Position numbers and translations under genes: made by a program
The notes under the pieces: model-generated
The model's input: the letters and a program-made list of their open reading frames with translations, nothing else
What the model was told of the DNA's origin: nothing
The model's database searches: none
Assembly: GCA_013331575.1 (NCBI GenBank)
Contig: DUGD01000060.1
Location: forward strand, 5,328 to 17,841
Length of the DNA stretch: 12,514 bases
From: Candidatus Woesearchaeota archaeon
GTDB taxonomy: Archaea; Nanobdellota; Nanobdellia; Woesearchaeales; UBA525
Direction of reading: 5' to 3'
Shown here: in pieces, positions 2,640 through 11,906 of the stretch
Position numbering within the stretch: the stretch's first letter is position 1
Layout of the letters: each line of letters opens with the position of its first letter

Positions 2640-2939
2640 ATGACATACAAATTCAGCGATTTCCGCAAGAACCTCAACGAGAAGGGACTGCAATACGCAC
2701 TGCGCGAAGACGCGAAGGCAACACGCGAACGCCACCCGCATCTCAGCGCCATCCATGACTATGGCACCGCGCCTGCGCGCATATTCAATACCATGGCACG
2801 TGAAGCACCGCAAGAGGCAAAGGGAATGTTCTACCTCTGTGGGCTTGCATCGACTGCATTCTACCCTGCACTACTCACAGTAGGCGCTACCGGATATGCA
2901 TTCGACAAGACGTGCCTCGACAAGTTCAAGCGCGACTAA
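2640..2939 (+). CDS. Small putative membrane protein, first of a tandem paralogue pair (99 aa)
   Basis: This is an unknown protein. Residues 5-33 form a charged, probably helical module starting SDFRKNLNEKGLQYALRED and ending in RERHP. A hydrophobic stretch follows at ~65-92 (containing LCGLASTAFYPALLTVGATG) that could be one or two membrane segments, then a short basic tail. The next gene is a full-length paralogue: the N-terminal module is identical even at DNA level, while the remainder has diverged but keeps HPxLxxIH, a Pro/Ile pair and a YP within the hydrophobic part. The start is supported by GGGGTGA at 2630-2636. It is the first gene of the accessory operon and is followed by a 41-nt gap. 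A peripheral module tethered to the membrane is an inference. Confidence 0.8.
   Translation: MTYKFSDFRKNLNEKGLQYALREDAKATRERHPHLSAIHDYGTAPARIFNTMAREAPQEAKGMFYLCGLASTAFYPALLTVGATGYAFDKTCLDKFKRD
2653..2737 (+). repeat. 85-bp perfect direct repeat, copy 1
   Basis: Identical to 2997-3081, 344 bp downstream. It covers the coding sequence for the shared N-terminal module of the two paralogues, in the same reading frame, with no synonymous difference. Sequence on both sides differs. Confidence 0.95.
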
Positions 2940-2969
2940 GAGATAGCAACCACACACTGAACATCACGC

Positions 2970-2977
2970 GGAGGAGA
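2970..2977 (+). promoter_or_regulatory. Shine-Dalgarno site deciding the second paralogue start
   Basis: GGAGGAGA ends 3 nt before the ATG at 2981. It selects this ATG over the in-frame ATG at 2912, which lies inside the preceding gene. Confidence 0.7.
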
Positions 2978-2980
2978 ACC

Positions 2981-3334
2981 ATGACCAACTACAAGCTCAG
3001 CGATTTCCGCAAGAACCTCAACGAGAAGGGACTGCAATACGCACTGCGCGAAGACGCGAAGGCAACACGCGAACGCCACCCCACACTCTACGGCATACAC
3101 GAGGCATGCAAAGGCCCAGGACAGATCTTAGGACAGACAGCAGCAAGAACCAAAGATCCGACTGAAAAGGCAGTGTACACATTTGTCAAAGCAGCAGGAT
3201 ATGTCCTCGGCTACCCCCTGACAATGCCCATAGCTATTTACAGCGCGACGCTCCACGATCGCATCTTCCCGAGCGACAACACGTTCCTTGACAGAGTGGA
3301 ATCATGCAAGGAGATAGTCAAGTCACGGAAGTGA
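2981..3334 (+). CDS. Small putative membrane protein, second of a tandem paralogue pair (117 aa)
   Basis: This is an unknown protein, paralogous to the gene at 2640. Residues ~6-34 repeat the SDFRKNLNEKG...RERHP module exactly. The middle (~35-65) is diverged and more basic. A hydrophobic region at ~66-92 (VKAAGYVLGYPLTMPIAIYS) probably enters or crosses the membrane. A C-terminal extension (~93-117) with a final KSRK is absent from or shorter in the partner. The start is set by GGAGGAGA just upstream and by its alignment with the start of the first paralogue. It lies in the same operon, 41 nt after gene one and 22 nt before gene three. DNA identity in the 5' part against strong divergence in the 3' part points to recent gene conversion or strong constraint. 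Function is not known. Confidence 0.8.
   Translation: MTNYKLSDFRKNLNEKGLQYALREDAKATRERHPTLYGIHEACKGPGQILGQTAARTKDPTEKAVYTFVKAAGYVLGYPLTMPIAIYSATLHDRIFPSDNTFLDRVESCKEIVKSRK
2997..3081 (+). repeat. 85-bp perfect direct repeat, copy 2
   Basis: Second copy of 2653-2737, in the same frame of the next gene. The boundaries are sharp: the next base differs (C here, G in copy 1), and the preceding codons differ at DNA level. Confidence 0.95.
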
Positions 3335-3356
3335 ATCGCAATACATGAGGCAACCC

Positions 3357-4070
3357 ATGATCGCACAAACGACATCCTACACTCCACGCGCGCAGACAAG
3401 CGATCTTGAGGCCAAGACATTGGAAACGCCGGTTGCGCAGTCGAAGCGCATAACTCCTGAAGAGTTTTCTCAACTCTTCTCGCAAGTCGATGCGCTCGCG
3501 GCGATACAGAACAAAGACTACACCGATATGCCGAAGACGCAGGACTTGAGTGTCGACGGCTTCCGCACGTTCGCGATCGAGATGGGCTATGAACCATCGC
3601 TCGTCGAACGCGTGCTCGCGATCAACCATCCGACGTCGAAGGAGAAACGCGACGCGCTTGCACTGCTCGATTCCCAGCCAAGTATTCAAGCAGTGAAAGA
3701 AGCGTATATTAGCACCATCATGGAAGCGCTCGCCGCAGCATATCCTAGTGAGACGTTCATGCACTCCAGCACAGCCTCGTCCACCATAGCGATACAGCAC
3801 GTAACAAAAAAGCCAGTGGCACACGAGGAACGCTACGGATTCCTCGGAAGAAAAAAGAGAACAATCACCCGACATGAGGAGAACAAACAGTGCATCATGA
3901 TGATCGAAGTAGATACTAAATCAACCCCGAGAACCATCGAGGTTGAACTCTACAATGAACGCGCACTCGCAATCAAAGAGACCATCGCACAACTCGACAA
4001 TGCGTTTGGTAGAGACTACACGGTGAAGAAGACACACTACTTCTCCCACCCAGTACACACAACTGCATGA
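3357..4070 (+). CDS. Unknown soluble protein of the accessory operon (237 aa)
   Basis: I do not recognise this protein. Residues ~1-30 are Thr/Ser/Ala-rich and probably disordered. Residues ~30-85 (ITPEEFSQLF, then LSVDGFRTFAIEMGYEPSLVERVLA) resemble a helical segment common in bacterial and archaeal proteins of the type 'EEL..IA.E.GI....V..AL'; this is a weak resemblance only. Residues ~88-125 are helical. Residues ~140-205 look beta-rich (CIMMIEVD, RTIEVELY), followed by a helix and a polar tail. No membrane segment is seen. An in-frame ATG at 3345 exists, but the ATG at 3357 is preferred because GAGG (3347-3350) precedes it by 6 nt, matching the arrangement at the next gene. Its stop TGA is part of the next gene's TGAGG ribosome binding site, suggesting coupled translation. 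Confidence 0.75.
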   Translation: MIAQTTSYTPRAQTSDLEAKTLETPVAQSKRITPEEFSQLFSQVDALAAIQNKDYTDMPKTQDLSVDGFRTFAIEMGYEPSLVERVLAINHPTSKEKRDALALLDSQPSIQAVKEAYISTIMEALAAAYPSETFMHSSTASSTIAIQHVTKKPVAHEERYGFLGRKKRTITRHEENKQCIMMIEVDTKSTPRTIEVELYNERALAIKETIAQLDNAFGRDYTVKKTHYFSHPVHTTA

Positions 4071-4072
4071 GG
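4069..4072 (+). promoter_or_regulatory. Shine-Dalgarno overlapping a stop codon
   Basis: GAGG overlaps the TGA stop of the preceding gene (4068-4070) and sits 8 nt before the ATG at 4081. It links translation of the two genes. Confidence 0.6.
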
Positions 4073-4080
4073 CACACACC

Positions 4081-4461
4081 ATGAATCTCATTGATAAACT
4101 CAAGACGTACACGGGCAGGCAGCTCTCGCAGGAAGAGATCGCGAAGGCAGAAAGAGTCCTGCGAGAGGTGCAAGCACTCAGTTCACGACAACCAATCATA
4201 CACTCGTACGACGTCACCGACGAACGCATCGTCATCGAAGAGCGCGTCCTCATCGCGAACCTACCACCACAACCTGCGAATCCTCGAGAAAAGAGATGGG
4301 ATACTCGCACCTACACGCCGGACGGCAAGCTCATTATGCGCGAGATGACCAGATTCTATCCAGACCTCGGCGGCGTGGAGGCACTAAGCATCACCACGCG
4401 TTACGACCCGCCAGGATCGTTTTTCGGCACAACGACAAGAGCGTTAGTGAAGAAAGCATAA
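4081..4461 (+). CDS. YDPPG[SA]FFG-family protein, paralogue 1 of 3 (126 aa)
   Basis: This is an unknown small soluble protein, first of three tandem paralogues. Layout: an N-terminal helix ending in GRQLSQEEIAKAERVLREVQ (~12-31); a predicted strand DERIVIEE (~47-54); a hairpin-like segment TYTPDGKLIMRE; then the C-terminal signature RYDPPGSFFGT followed by a short basic tail. The same order is found in the genes at 4475 and 4880. It lacks cysteines, a signal peptide and membrane segments. Its last third is nearly identical at DNA level to paralogue 3 (33 of 34 bases around the signature). It begins 10 nt after gene three and ends 13 nt before paralogue 2. A small alpha plus beta domain is inferred; no function can be assigned. 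Confidence 0.82.
   Translation: MNLIDKLKTYTGRQLSQEEIAKAERVLREVQALSSRQPIIHSYDVTDERIVIEERVLIANLPPQPANPREKRWDTRTYTPDGKLIMREMTRFYPDLGGVEALSITTRYDPPGSFFGTTTRALVKKA
4398..4431 (+). repeat. 34-bp near-perfect direct repeat, copy 1
   Basis: Matches 5206-5239 (808 bp downstream) at 33 of 34 bases; the single change, T at 4422 against C, is synonymous. It encodes the RYDPPGSFFGT signature in paralogues 1 and 3. Paralogue 2 encodes a similar peptide with different codons. Confidence 0.9.
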
Positions 4462-4463
4462 TC

Positions 4464-4471
4464 GGAGTGAT
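4464..4471 (+). promoter_or_regulatory. Extended Shine-Dalgarno GGAGTGAT
   Basis: GGAGTGAT ends 3 nt before the ATG at 4475. It matches the complement of the archaeal 16S tail (GGAGGTGAT) minus one G and confirms the start of paralogue 2. Confidence 0.65.
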
Positions 4472-4474
4472 ACC

Positions 4475-4858
4475 ATGACGTTCACAGATGCACTCAAAAG
4501 ACTCATCGGCAGGCACCTTTACAGCCAGGAGATAGAACTGGCGATGAATGCCAACAAAAACGGTGAAGGATACTTCCAAGGTCTGAACAACCTACCGTTC
4601 CGCCCCGGCATGAGCACACATAGGGTGCTCGGCAAGTACATCGTCATCGATGACGTGACATACACCATCGCGGCGGGCGCGCTGCAGGAGAAGGAACGTG
4701 GCACAAGAGTGTGCACACTCGATGGCAGGCTCATCGTTGAGGACAAGATAGTATACCATCCCAAAAAATCCGATGCCGCGGAACGCGTCATGACAAAATA
4801 TGATCCGCCTGGAGCGTTCTTCGGCAAGACTTCGAAAACACCAGTGGCAGACGAATAA
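4475..4858 (+). CDS. YDPPG[SA]FFG-family protein, paralogue 2 of 3 (127 aa)
   Basis: This is the second and most diverged member of the triplet. It keeps the N-terminal helix (LKRLIGRHLYSQEIELAMNA), the strand KYIVIDD, the hairpin-like TLDGRLIVED (one cysteine just before it) and the signature KYDPPGAFFGK. The signature differs from its partners at S to A and T to K. A Gly/Asn-rich insertion (~28-45) replaces the partners' charged segment. No signal peptide or membrane segment is seen. The start is fixed by GGAGTGAT (4464-4471). It lies 13 nt after paralogue 1 and 21 nt before paralogue 3, clearly in one operon. Conservation of the three blocks despite drift between them marks them as the functional core of the family. 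The function is unknown. Confidence 0.82.
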   Translation: MTFTDALKRLIGRHLYSQEIELAMNANKNGEGYFQGLNNLPFRPGMSTHRVLGKYIVIDDVTYTIAAGALQEKERGTRVCTLDGRLIVEDKIVYHPKKSDAAERVMTKYDPPGAFFGKTSKTPVADE

Positions 4859-4867
4859 ACCAATCAC

Positions 4868-4876
4868 GGACGTGAT
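4868..4876 (+). promoter_or_regulatory. Extended Shine-Dalgarno GGACGTGAT
   Basis: GGACGTGAT differs from the full archaeal consensus GGAGGTGAT at one base and ends 3 nt before the ATG at 4880, confirming the start of paralogue 3. Confidence 0.65.
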
Positions 4877-4879
4877 ACT

Positions 4880-5251
4880 ATGGGATTAACCAACCATCTC
4901 AGAATACTCGCAGGGCGTCAGCTCTCGCAAAGCGAGATAGCGAAGGCAAAGATAGGGACGAACGATGAGACGGAAGAGGTCTCATGCTCGTACATGAGAC
5001 TCGATGATAAGCTCGTGGTCAAGGAGACGCAGCGCATCCACACGACCACTCCGGATGTCTCAGAAGGATGGCAACGCATATACACCGGGTGGTATGACAA
5101 GAGATACACTGCAAGCACGTACACGCTCGATGGCAAGCTCATCGAACGCACAGACATAACGCTTTTTCCTGAAGAGGGATGGTCTCCCGCGCAGCGCAAG
5201 ACTGTGCGTTACGACCCGCCAGGATCGTTCTTCGGCACAGAGAAGCGATAA
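4880..5251 (+). CDS. YDPPG[SA]FFG-family protein, paralogue 3 of 3 (123 aa)
   Basis: This is the third member of the triplet and the last gene of the accessory operon. The N-terminal helix (LRILAGRQLSQSEIAKAK) matches paralogue 1 almost residue for residue, with stretches of shared DNA as well. The strand DDKLVVKE, the hairpin-like TYTLDGKLIERT and the signature RYDPPGSFFGT follow in family order. The tail ends right after the signature (EKR), so the C-terminal extension of paralogues 1 and 2 is dispensable. The middle (~50-75) is rich in Trp, Tyr and Thr and differs from its partners. Downstream, within 40 nt, the noncoding repeat tract begins. Close identity to paralogue 1 on both sides of a diverged middle suggests gene conversion at the ends. 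No known function. Confidence 0.82.
   Translation: MGLTNHLRILAGRQLSQSEIAKAKIGTNDETEEVSCSYMRLDDKLVVKETQRIHTTTPDVSEGWQRIYTGWYDKRYTASTYTLDGKLIERTDITLFPEEGWSPAQRKTVRYDPPGSFFGTEKR
5206..5239 (+). repeat. 34-bp near-perfect direct repeat, copy 2
   Basis: Partner of 4398-4431, with one mismatch (5230). It lies at the same position of the signature in paralogue 3. Confidence 0.9.
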
Positions 5252-5288: not shown

Positions 5289-5523
5289 CGTCGTGACTAC
5301 ACCTAACTAGCACTACGTCTAAGCATCAGTAGCAGACTGACTGAAGAAGTACCAGACAGTGATGTATCGTCGTTAACTACTTCTAACTATCACTACGTCT
5401 AATTGCCAGTAGTAGACTGACTAATTGAAGATGTACCAACCACAGGGTTTACCATCGTAACTACGTCCAATCATTACTACATCTAACTATTAGTTATTAG
5501 TAGTAGACTACTAAGTCGAAGAC
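5289..5523. repeat. Three imperfect tandem noncoding units of ~80 nt with a conserved hairpin
   Basis: Units begin at 5289, 5368 and 5453 (steps of 79 and 85 nt, not multiples of three). Each starts C[GA]TCGT..ACTAC, then has ACTAC[GA]TCTAA in the middle and a hairpin near its end. Hairpin arms: AGTAG with CTgACT (loop CAGA) in unit 1, AGTAG with CTgACT (loop TAGA) in unit 2, and TTAGTAG with CTACTAA (loop TAGA, 5497-5514) in unit 3. The flanking pair is C-G in unit 1 and T-A in unit 3, a compensatory change. The tract is rich in CTA/TAG, full of stops in all frames, and clearly noncoding. It could be a structured RNA, a 3' end of the operon transcript, or a protein-binding or recombination site. 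Nothing else was found between 5252 and 5632 except the terminator near its right end. Confidence 0.8.
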
Positions 5524-11669: not shown

Positions 11670-11704
11670 GTAATGCTGATGATTCTTAGGCAATAGGGGG
11701 CTAG

Positions 11705-11796
11705 GTTGTGGCCTTGGAGTAATGCCAGACTGCCGTCATTGGCCGCAGCCGACGGCAGTCGTCTATGGACTGCTGTCGTACGAACGCCGCCACAAC
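11705..11796. repeat. Nested inverted repeats with alternative hairpins
   Basis: The outer arms GTTGTGGC (11705-11712) and GCCACAAC (11789-11796) enclose a perfect 10-bp stem, GACTGCCGTC (11728-11737) with GACGGCAGTC (11751-11760). A third segment, GACTGCTGTC (11768-11777), can pair with the same middle arm with one G-U pair and a 7-nt loop, so two mutually exclusive stems are possible. The block lies in the 268-nt gap between VapC and the surface protein. It may be a noncoding RNA or decayed sequence; no Rfam family was recognised by eye. The rest of the gap holds only a 94-codon minus frame that I reject. Confidence 0.55.
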
Positions 11797-11906
11797 AGGC
11801 AAGTATAGTTATCAAAAAGAATGCTACTATTGCATTGGCCGCCGACAGAGGATGGACTGAACAGCCAGACACAGTCTTGCTAGATGAGGGGAGAAAAGAT
11901 GGCTTA

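Follow-up and report, generated by a model that had tools for sequence, protein, structure and literature searches.

What kind of protein is it that an archaeon encodes three times in succession, and what can be said about its role? The question is raised by a window of 12,514 nucleotides (the whole stretch of DNA analyzed here) from the draft genome of an archaeon, which totals 1.63 Mb in 99 contigs and is 74.6% complete. Genes 1, 2 and 3 of the triplet reside on the plus strand at positions 4081-4461, 4475-4858 and 4880-5251 (stop codons included) and encode proteins of 126, 127 and 123 residues, respectively. The original prediction, made from the sequence alone, held that these three consecutive genes share one layout of blocks. 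The reading frames are indeed placed as claimed, and a three-way alignment contains 25 invariant columns, among them G12-R13, L15, E19-I20 and V51 in the N-terminal part and T79-x-D81-G82-x-L84-I85 and Y108-D-P-P-G112-x-F-F-G116 in the C-terminal part. Gene 2, the copy that has diverged furthest, deviates by carrying C for Y at position 78 and DGRLI for DGKLI. Pairwise identities amount to 29-42%. A search of the own genome with gene 1 as the query retrieved gene 3 at E 5.2e-15 (43% identity) and gene 2 at E 1.9e-8 (32% identity), so that a chance likeness is excluded. Profile scores with the respective protein left out were 89.7 bits for gene 1, 56.5 bits for gene 2 and 112.5 bits for gene 3, while the best of 20 shuffles each reached 2.4, 1.7 and 5.9 bits. 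A fourth, divergent copy is located elsewhere in the same genome on the minus strand (G000:C52:3564-3968).

That no characterized family features this combination of blocks had been stated as well and was borne out, as no convincing match was present in Pfam, NCBIfam, PHROG, PADLOC or, by sequence, among solved structures. For the three triplet proteins, neither Pfam (E ≤ 0.5) nor PADLOC (E ≤ 0.1) yielded a family, and their NCBIfam matches stayed far under the cut-offs (E 0.19 and 0.081). When 14 of the 17 family members described below were scanned against Pfam-A, nothing exceeded a curated cut-off and the sole match was Sulfakinin for one member (E 0.13). An alignment of 14 members matched two PHROG families with one member each (E 0.048 and 0.098), none of them convincingly, and the best solved structure was found at E 0.3 with gene 1 as the query and at E 0.34, as a single match, with the profile. 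In the literature, YDPPG occurs in five papers whose titles indicate other subjects; the family could still be described in print under another name.

Relatives were instead collected by the iterated profile searches proposed earlier, combined with genome searches, and this resulted in a family of 17 members of 102-180 residues with homologues in other archaea. All 17 scored between 28.2 and 112.5 bits when left out of their own profile, with the nearest relative removed too in two pairs (P0003/P0004 and gene 3/P0005); the best shuffle reached 5.9 bits (20 shuffles each) and the best reversed sequence 2.4 bits. P0005, a protein of 102 residues, lacks the N-terminal helices as predicted, and P0006, which is a truncated form of gene 2, was left out of the family. 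Eleven members could be placed, in eight genomes of the window's archaeal class (G000, G002, G003, G101, G339, G520, G531 and G568), and the remaining six are database proteins without genome placement (P0003-P0005, P0007, P0008 and P0011). The survey of copy numbers that had been recommended revealed four copies in the own genome and a single one in each of the other seven. Only G82, G112 and G116 are invariant throughout the 17 sequences, and A23, L84 and Y108 come close to invariance. First-round matches in G011 and G063 covered just 35 and 39 profile positions inside open reading frames of 235 and 240 residues and were not matched by later profiles; these proteins resemble AlaX or tRNA-editing domains and were discarded as false matches. 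A scan of genome contigs using alignment A2 and one peptide pattern confirmed no relative, and a second one with P0010, the family protein of a genome from the window's own genus (G002), returned only the query's own record.

The family is sparse among the genomes searched, and its placed members all belong to the window's class of DPANN archaea. It was detected in 5 of 352 genomes in the order sample, in 7 of 378 in the class sample, from which five transposase-like matches were dropped, and in 8 of 371 in the phylum sample, from which two false matches were dropped; the three samples overlap, and the profile used for the order preceded the one used for the phylum sample and was less sensitive. 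The discarded matches (G360, G477, G506, G514 and G549 in the class sample, G360 and G506 in the phylum sample) appeared transposase-like by eye and stop at profile position 94 or earlier, short of the C-terminal block. In G001, from the same genus, and G004, from the same family, no member was found at E ≤ 1, absences that are to be taken as soft because many of the genomes are incomplete.

The neighbors of the family genes, a survey of which had also been called for, differ between loci and none is conserved in a way that would point to a pathway. A nucleotidyltransferase gene was considered in this respect. It adjoins the family gene only in G002 and G520, is itself present in 10 of 10 genomes searched, including G001 and G004, both of which lack the family, and shared context was therefore dropped as a clue to function. 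The same site in the window's own genome is a 300-bp gap in which the profile detected no remnant of the family; the gap harbors one copy of a dispersed repeat. Near the nucleotidyltransferase, a TIM-barrel protein is encoded in two genomes (L018:9145-12479 and L056:2489-6289), and a similar pairing was apparent by eye in several others. In G520 (L056:6706-7199), two small genes for proteins of 61 and 104 residues are situated on the same strand directly upstream of the family gene; by eye, their starts resemble signal sequences, one of them that of a lipoprotein.

A patchy spread, with five genomes in the order sample and eight overall, and neighbors that vary among loci could also be read as the mark of mobile or viral accessory genes that serve defense, counter-defense or host manipulation and are passed on by sporadic transfer. 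A Foldseek comparison with viral structures contributes to this explanation in so far as its best matches, none of them at E ≤ 0.001, are weak and yet not nil: A0A1X7C077 (130 residues) was matched at E 0.030 with probability 1.00, TM scores of 0.52/0.50 and an rmsd of 8.5, and the Yersinia phage protein A0A2C9CWV2 at E 0.033 with probability 1.00 and TM scores of 0.40/0.19. However, a scan of viral contigs with one restrictive peptide pattern confirmed no relative, the anti-phage defense models of PADLOC matched neither the three window genes nor P0008, P0011, L035 and L036 at E ≤ 0.1, the PHROG matches were not convincing, and rapid divergence combined with loss would yield the same pattern. 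We regard an accessory role of this kind as unlikely.

Structure prediction for the monomers, another of the follow-ups suggested at the outset, gave one and the same fold for the two copies modeled. AlphaFold2 returned models with a pLDDT of 88.2 and a pTM of 0.77 for gene 3 and with a pLDDT of 84.0 and a pTM of 0.76 for gene 1, and in both the elements follow each other in the same order, two helices and then a seven-stranded antiparallel sheet, with a short hairpin in gene 1 and a long one in gene 3. Foldseek retrieved nothing from the PDB at E ≤ 0.001 and weak resemblances only. The closest known systems include the single-layer beta-sheet of OspA (8tvd_E, 2ol7_A, 6kt1) and the DUF3836 proteins from the bacteria Parabacteroides and Bacteroides (4r03, 4r8o). 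No sequence match to DUF3836 was seen, and these proteins are missing among the 50 matches listed for the gene 3 model; DUF3836 is also missing from the Pfam matches listed for 14 members, a negative that counts only if the library scanned includes the corresponding model. RHS/YD-repeat proteins such as teneurin (9g42_A) form a shell from several tandem YD units, whereas the triplet proteins of 123 and 126 residues are predicted as a single helix-capped meander without a repeat array, and the Pfam YD-repeat was not matched by 14 members at E ≤ 1, a range in which the HMMER filters drop most matches above 0.1. For p32/C1QBP (1p32, 6szw), E-values were not significant and there was no sequence match.

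The alignment of the family features a further block, TPDxSxGW...HxGYY, on the long hairpin, which is new relative to the original prediction. It can be written as T-x-D-x-[ST] followed by [HYC]-x-G-[YWE]-[YWN] just ahead of the DGxL hairpin, an expression that was composed after the alignment had been seen. Both halves are present in nine of the 17 members (gene 3, P0005, P0007, P0008, P0011, L022, L035, L036 and L037), including all three from outside the order, and the block is missing in the other eight (genes 1 and 2, P0003, P0004, P0009, P0010, P0012 and L023). Within the triplet, gene 3 alone carries it, as TPDVSEGW...YTGWY in codons 57-72 (positions 5048-5095, plus strand). In the model of gene 3 it occupies the loop that connects strands 44-58 and 67-81, together with residues next to this loop, and the same hairpin is formed by strands 49-58 and 69-78 in the model of gene 1. 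The earlier statement that the blocks were kept while the segments between them drifted accordingly stands for the blocks, and the drift turns out to consist in part of a shortening of this hairpin in genes 1 and 2.

Gene 3 is also the copy that most resembles distant relatives, with 27, 32 and 30% identity to the three members from outside the order, as compared with 23, 27 and 19% for gene 1 and 19, 26 and 18% for gene 2. The picture is different for P0012 (19% for gene 3 versus 23 and 24% for the other two copies) and for L023 (24% versus 26 and 25%), the latter originating from another family of the order and providing, as it lacks the block, a counter-example inside the order. The simplest reading of these sequences is that the family originally had the hairpin block and that genes 1 and 2 lost it. 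This argument is built on the distribution of the block because the family trees are without starred branches, both for the 17 members (0 of 14 inner branches) and for the ten rows used for narrow tests (0 of 7).

When did the copies separate? The nearest relatives of gene 1 are P0003 and P0004 with 57 and 55% identity, and that of gene 3 is P0005 with 75%. A clade that comprises genes 1-3 and excludes P0003-P0005 is rejected (p-AU 0.00054), which indicates that genes 1 and 3 had separated before the two lineages split, and gene 1 groups with P0003 and P0004 with a support of 82/93. By this sequence-based test, the duplication is older than the split from the second lineage. In the best small tree genes 1-3 and P0003-P0005 do not fall into one clade, although the test does not reject a tree with all six together (p-AU 0.225). 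The contig recorded for P0004 has the same length as that for P0005, 31,896 bases, which suggests that they reside on a single one. That orthologues of genes 1 and 3 have been kept in a second lineage and that the hairpin block is confined to gene 3 support one suggestion made at the beginning, i.e., that the copies are specialized variants.

The likeness between the copies is in part a matter of DNA. Genes 1 and 3 use the same codon at 30 of 47 identical residues, where 19.0 would be expected from the codon bias of nine other window genes (P 0.0007). Codon sharing is also somewhat increased for genes 2 and 3 (19 of 30, 12.4 expected, P 0.011) and close to expectation for genes 1 and 2 (17 of 38, 15.8 expected, P 0.40). 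At the DNA level, these two genes show 97% identity to each other over 34 nt in the C-terminal block of genes 1 and 3 and 78% identity over 37 nt in the N-terminal block. The block likeness of these two genes can therefore be taken as protein constraint only in part, and local gene conversion would explain both the excess of shared codons and the identity of the C-terminal DNA. NG86 estimates of dN and dS are 0.648 and 1.487 for genes 1 and 2, 0.612 and 1.199 for genes 1 and 3, and 0.872 and 1.059 for genes 2 and 3; the resulting ratios of 0.44, 0.51 and 0.82 are only moderately low and poorly estimated because dS exceeds 1. P0006, an 84-residue variant of gene 2 on another contig that may be an allele or an assembly error, diverges past TIAAG and ends early, and gene 2 may thus be dispensable.

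Taken together, the shared codons and near-identical C-terminal DNA of genes 1 and 3, the divergence of gene 2 and the truncation of its variant would suit a scenario in which the triplet consists of decaying or nearly neutral orphans whose blocks persist through recent duplication or an exchange of ends between copies. On the other hand, the family is recognizable beyond the order at 16-32% identity, the frames are open in all 11 matches across eight genomes, and the duplication that gave rise to genes 1 and 3 predates the lineage split. Of all the explanations considered here, decay appears the least probable.

The triplet forms the end of a run of six plus-strand genes at positions 2640-5251, which are separated by 41, 10, 10, 13 and 21 nt. 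The first three encode proteins of 99 (2640-2939), 117 (2981-3334) and 241 residues (3345-4070, ending 10 nt upstream of gene 1), for which no known family was found in Pfam or NCBIfam. Upstream of the six genes, a promoter-like GAAAGGGAAGG-TTTAAATATA was spotted by eye on the plus strand at 2577-2597; it resembles an archaeal BRE plus TATA box. Ribosome-site scores are 5, 6, 6, 4, 5 and 7 for the six genes in order, compared with a background of 211 ATGs of the strand (true starts included), 35% of which reach 4, 10% reach 5 and 1.4% reach 6, such that the score of gene 1 is unremarkable; the phosphoesterase and GINS genes used for comparison score 2 and 3. Judged by spacing and signals, the six genes are probably co-expressed as an operon with the triplet at its end. 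The 241-residue protein had one other match in the 12 genomes searched (G002, E 0.069) and weak ones only in PADLOC, one at E 0.0055 that covers 69 residues and one at E 0.011 that covers 57. The genes for the 99- and 117-residue proteins share a common head, with 113 nt at 90% identity (2646-2758 and 2990-3102), and then continue into different bodies. Both proteins contain a moderately hydrophobic stretch with best 19-residue means of 1.47 and 1.26, too weak for a confident call of a membrane helix. Genes nearby in the window include those for transcription factor E and a GINS subunit.

Adjacent genes with gaps of 13 and 21 nt, a predicted fold common to genes 1 and 3, and relatives of both kept in another lineage invite the idea that the three proteins are obligate subunits of one hetero-oligomer, assembled for example by pairing of edge strands. 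The other seven genomes with the family are single-copy, however, so the basic function needs only one protein, and the gene 2 variant P0006 is truncated. An obligate complex seems a rather unlikely arrangement, on a par with a mobile or viral origin.

We favor, at a probability of roughly 40%, a family of non-enzymatic binding modules in which gene 3 represents the ancestral form and genes 1 and 2 specialized derivatives. The invariant columns are all glycines, and those close to invariance hold A, L and Y, as one would expect from structural constraint but not from a set of catalytic residues, and it is this pattern along with the small size and a protruding hairpin with a conserved tip that makes a binding module the most likely solution. 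The helix pair and the seven-stranded meander, closed by the YDPPGxFFG turn, would present the long hairpin, and its tip TPDxSxGW...HxGYY would contact a partner or ligand. Gene 3 would have retained the ancestral function, and genes 1 and 2, as derived copies, would have a different binding target or form an assembly with gene 3. A bolder model would have a DPANN binding module whose tip recognizes one conserved partner throughout the class, triplicated here into one canonical and two tip-less subunits of a hetero-oligomer, with genes 1 and 3 swapping ends by gene conversion; a combination of this kind we consider quite improbable.

According to PMC9258230, proteins that lack a functional prediction dominate among the lineage-specific families of archaea. 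The hypothetical families covered in passages of PMC8204110 and PMC9258230 are likewise conserved and of unknown function, with placed members in DPANN lineages, but they are widespread within their lineages, whereas the triplet family is sparse. By this yardstick, it adds to a type of orphan family that these archaea commonly have and settles by itself no long-standing question. It now has a defined membership and two confident fold models and offers a testable contrast inside one operon, with one copy that has the conserved tip and two that do not, and is in this way well suited to the question of what orphan families do.

The non-coding parts of the window hold some further features. From the phosphoesterase gene to the promoter-like sequence, about 500 bp (2060-2570) contain no convincing gene by eye, and Rfam at the gathering threshold and ARAGORN gave no match across the contig, this region included. 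Degenerate repeats fill part of the interval that separates gene 3 from the convergent genes downstream of it (5296-5522), with a 47-nt unit in two copies and a 24-nt unit in three, spaced 80-91 nt apart; at E ≤ 0.001 they do not recur in the own genome. Another repeat, intergenic and dispersed, measures about 120 bp and is found at 11684-11812. It has at least 34 matches in the own genome at E ≤ 1e-5, itself included (40 of 68 candidates scored), and is 79-92% identical to eight other copies over 78-133 nt. This repeat matches no Rfam family at the gathering threshold, contains the strong inverted repeat ACTGCCGTC...GACGGCAGT with a folding energy of -48.6 kcal/mol (a value without shuffle control) and may represent either a small mobile element or an RNA with a defined structure.
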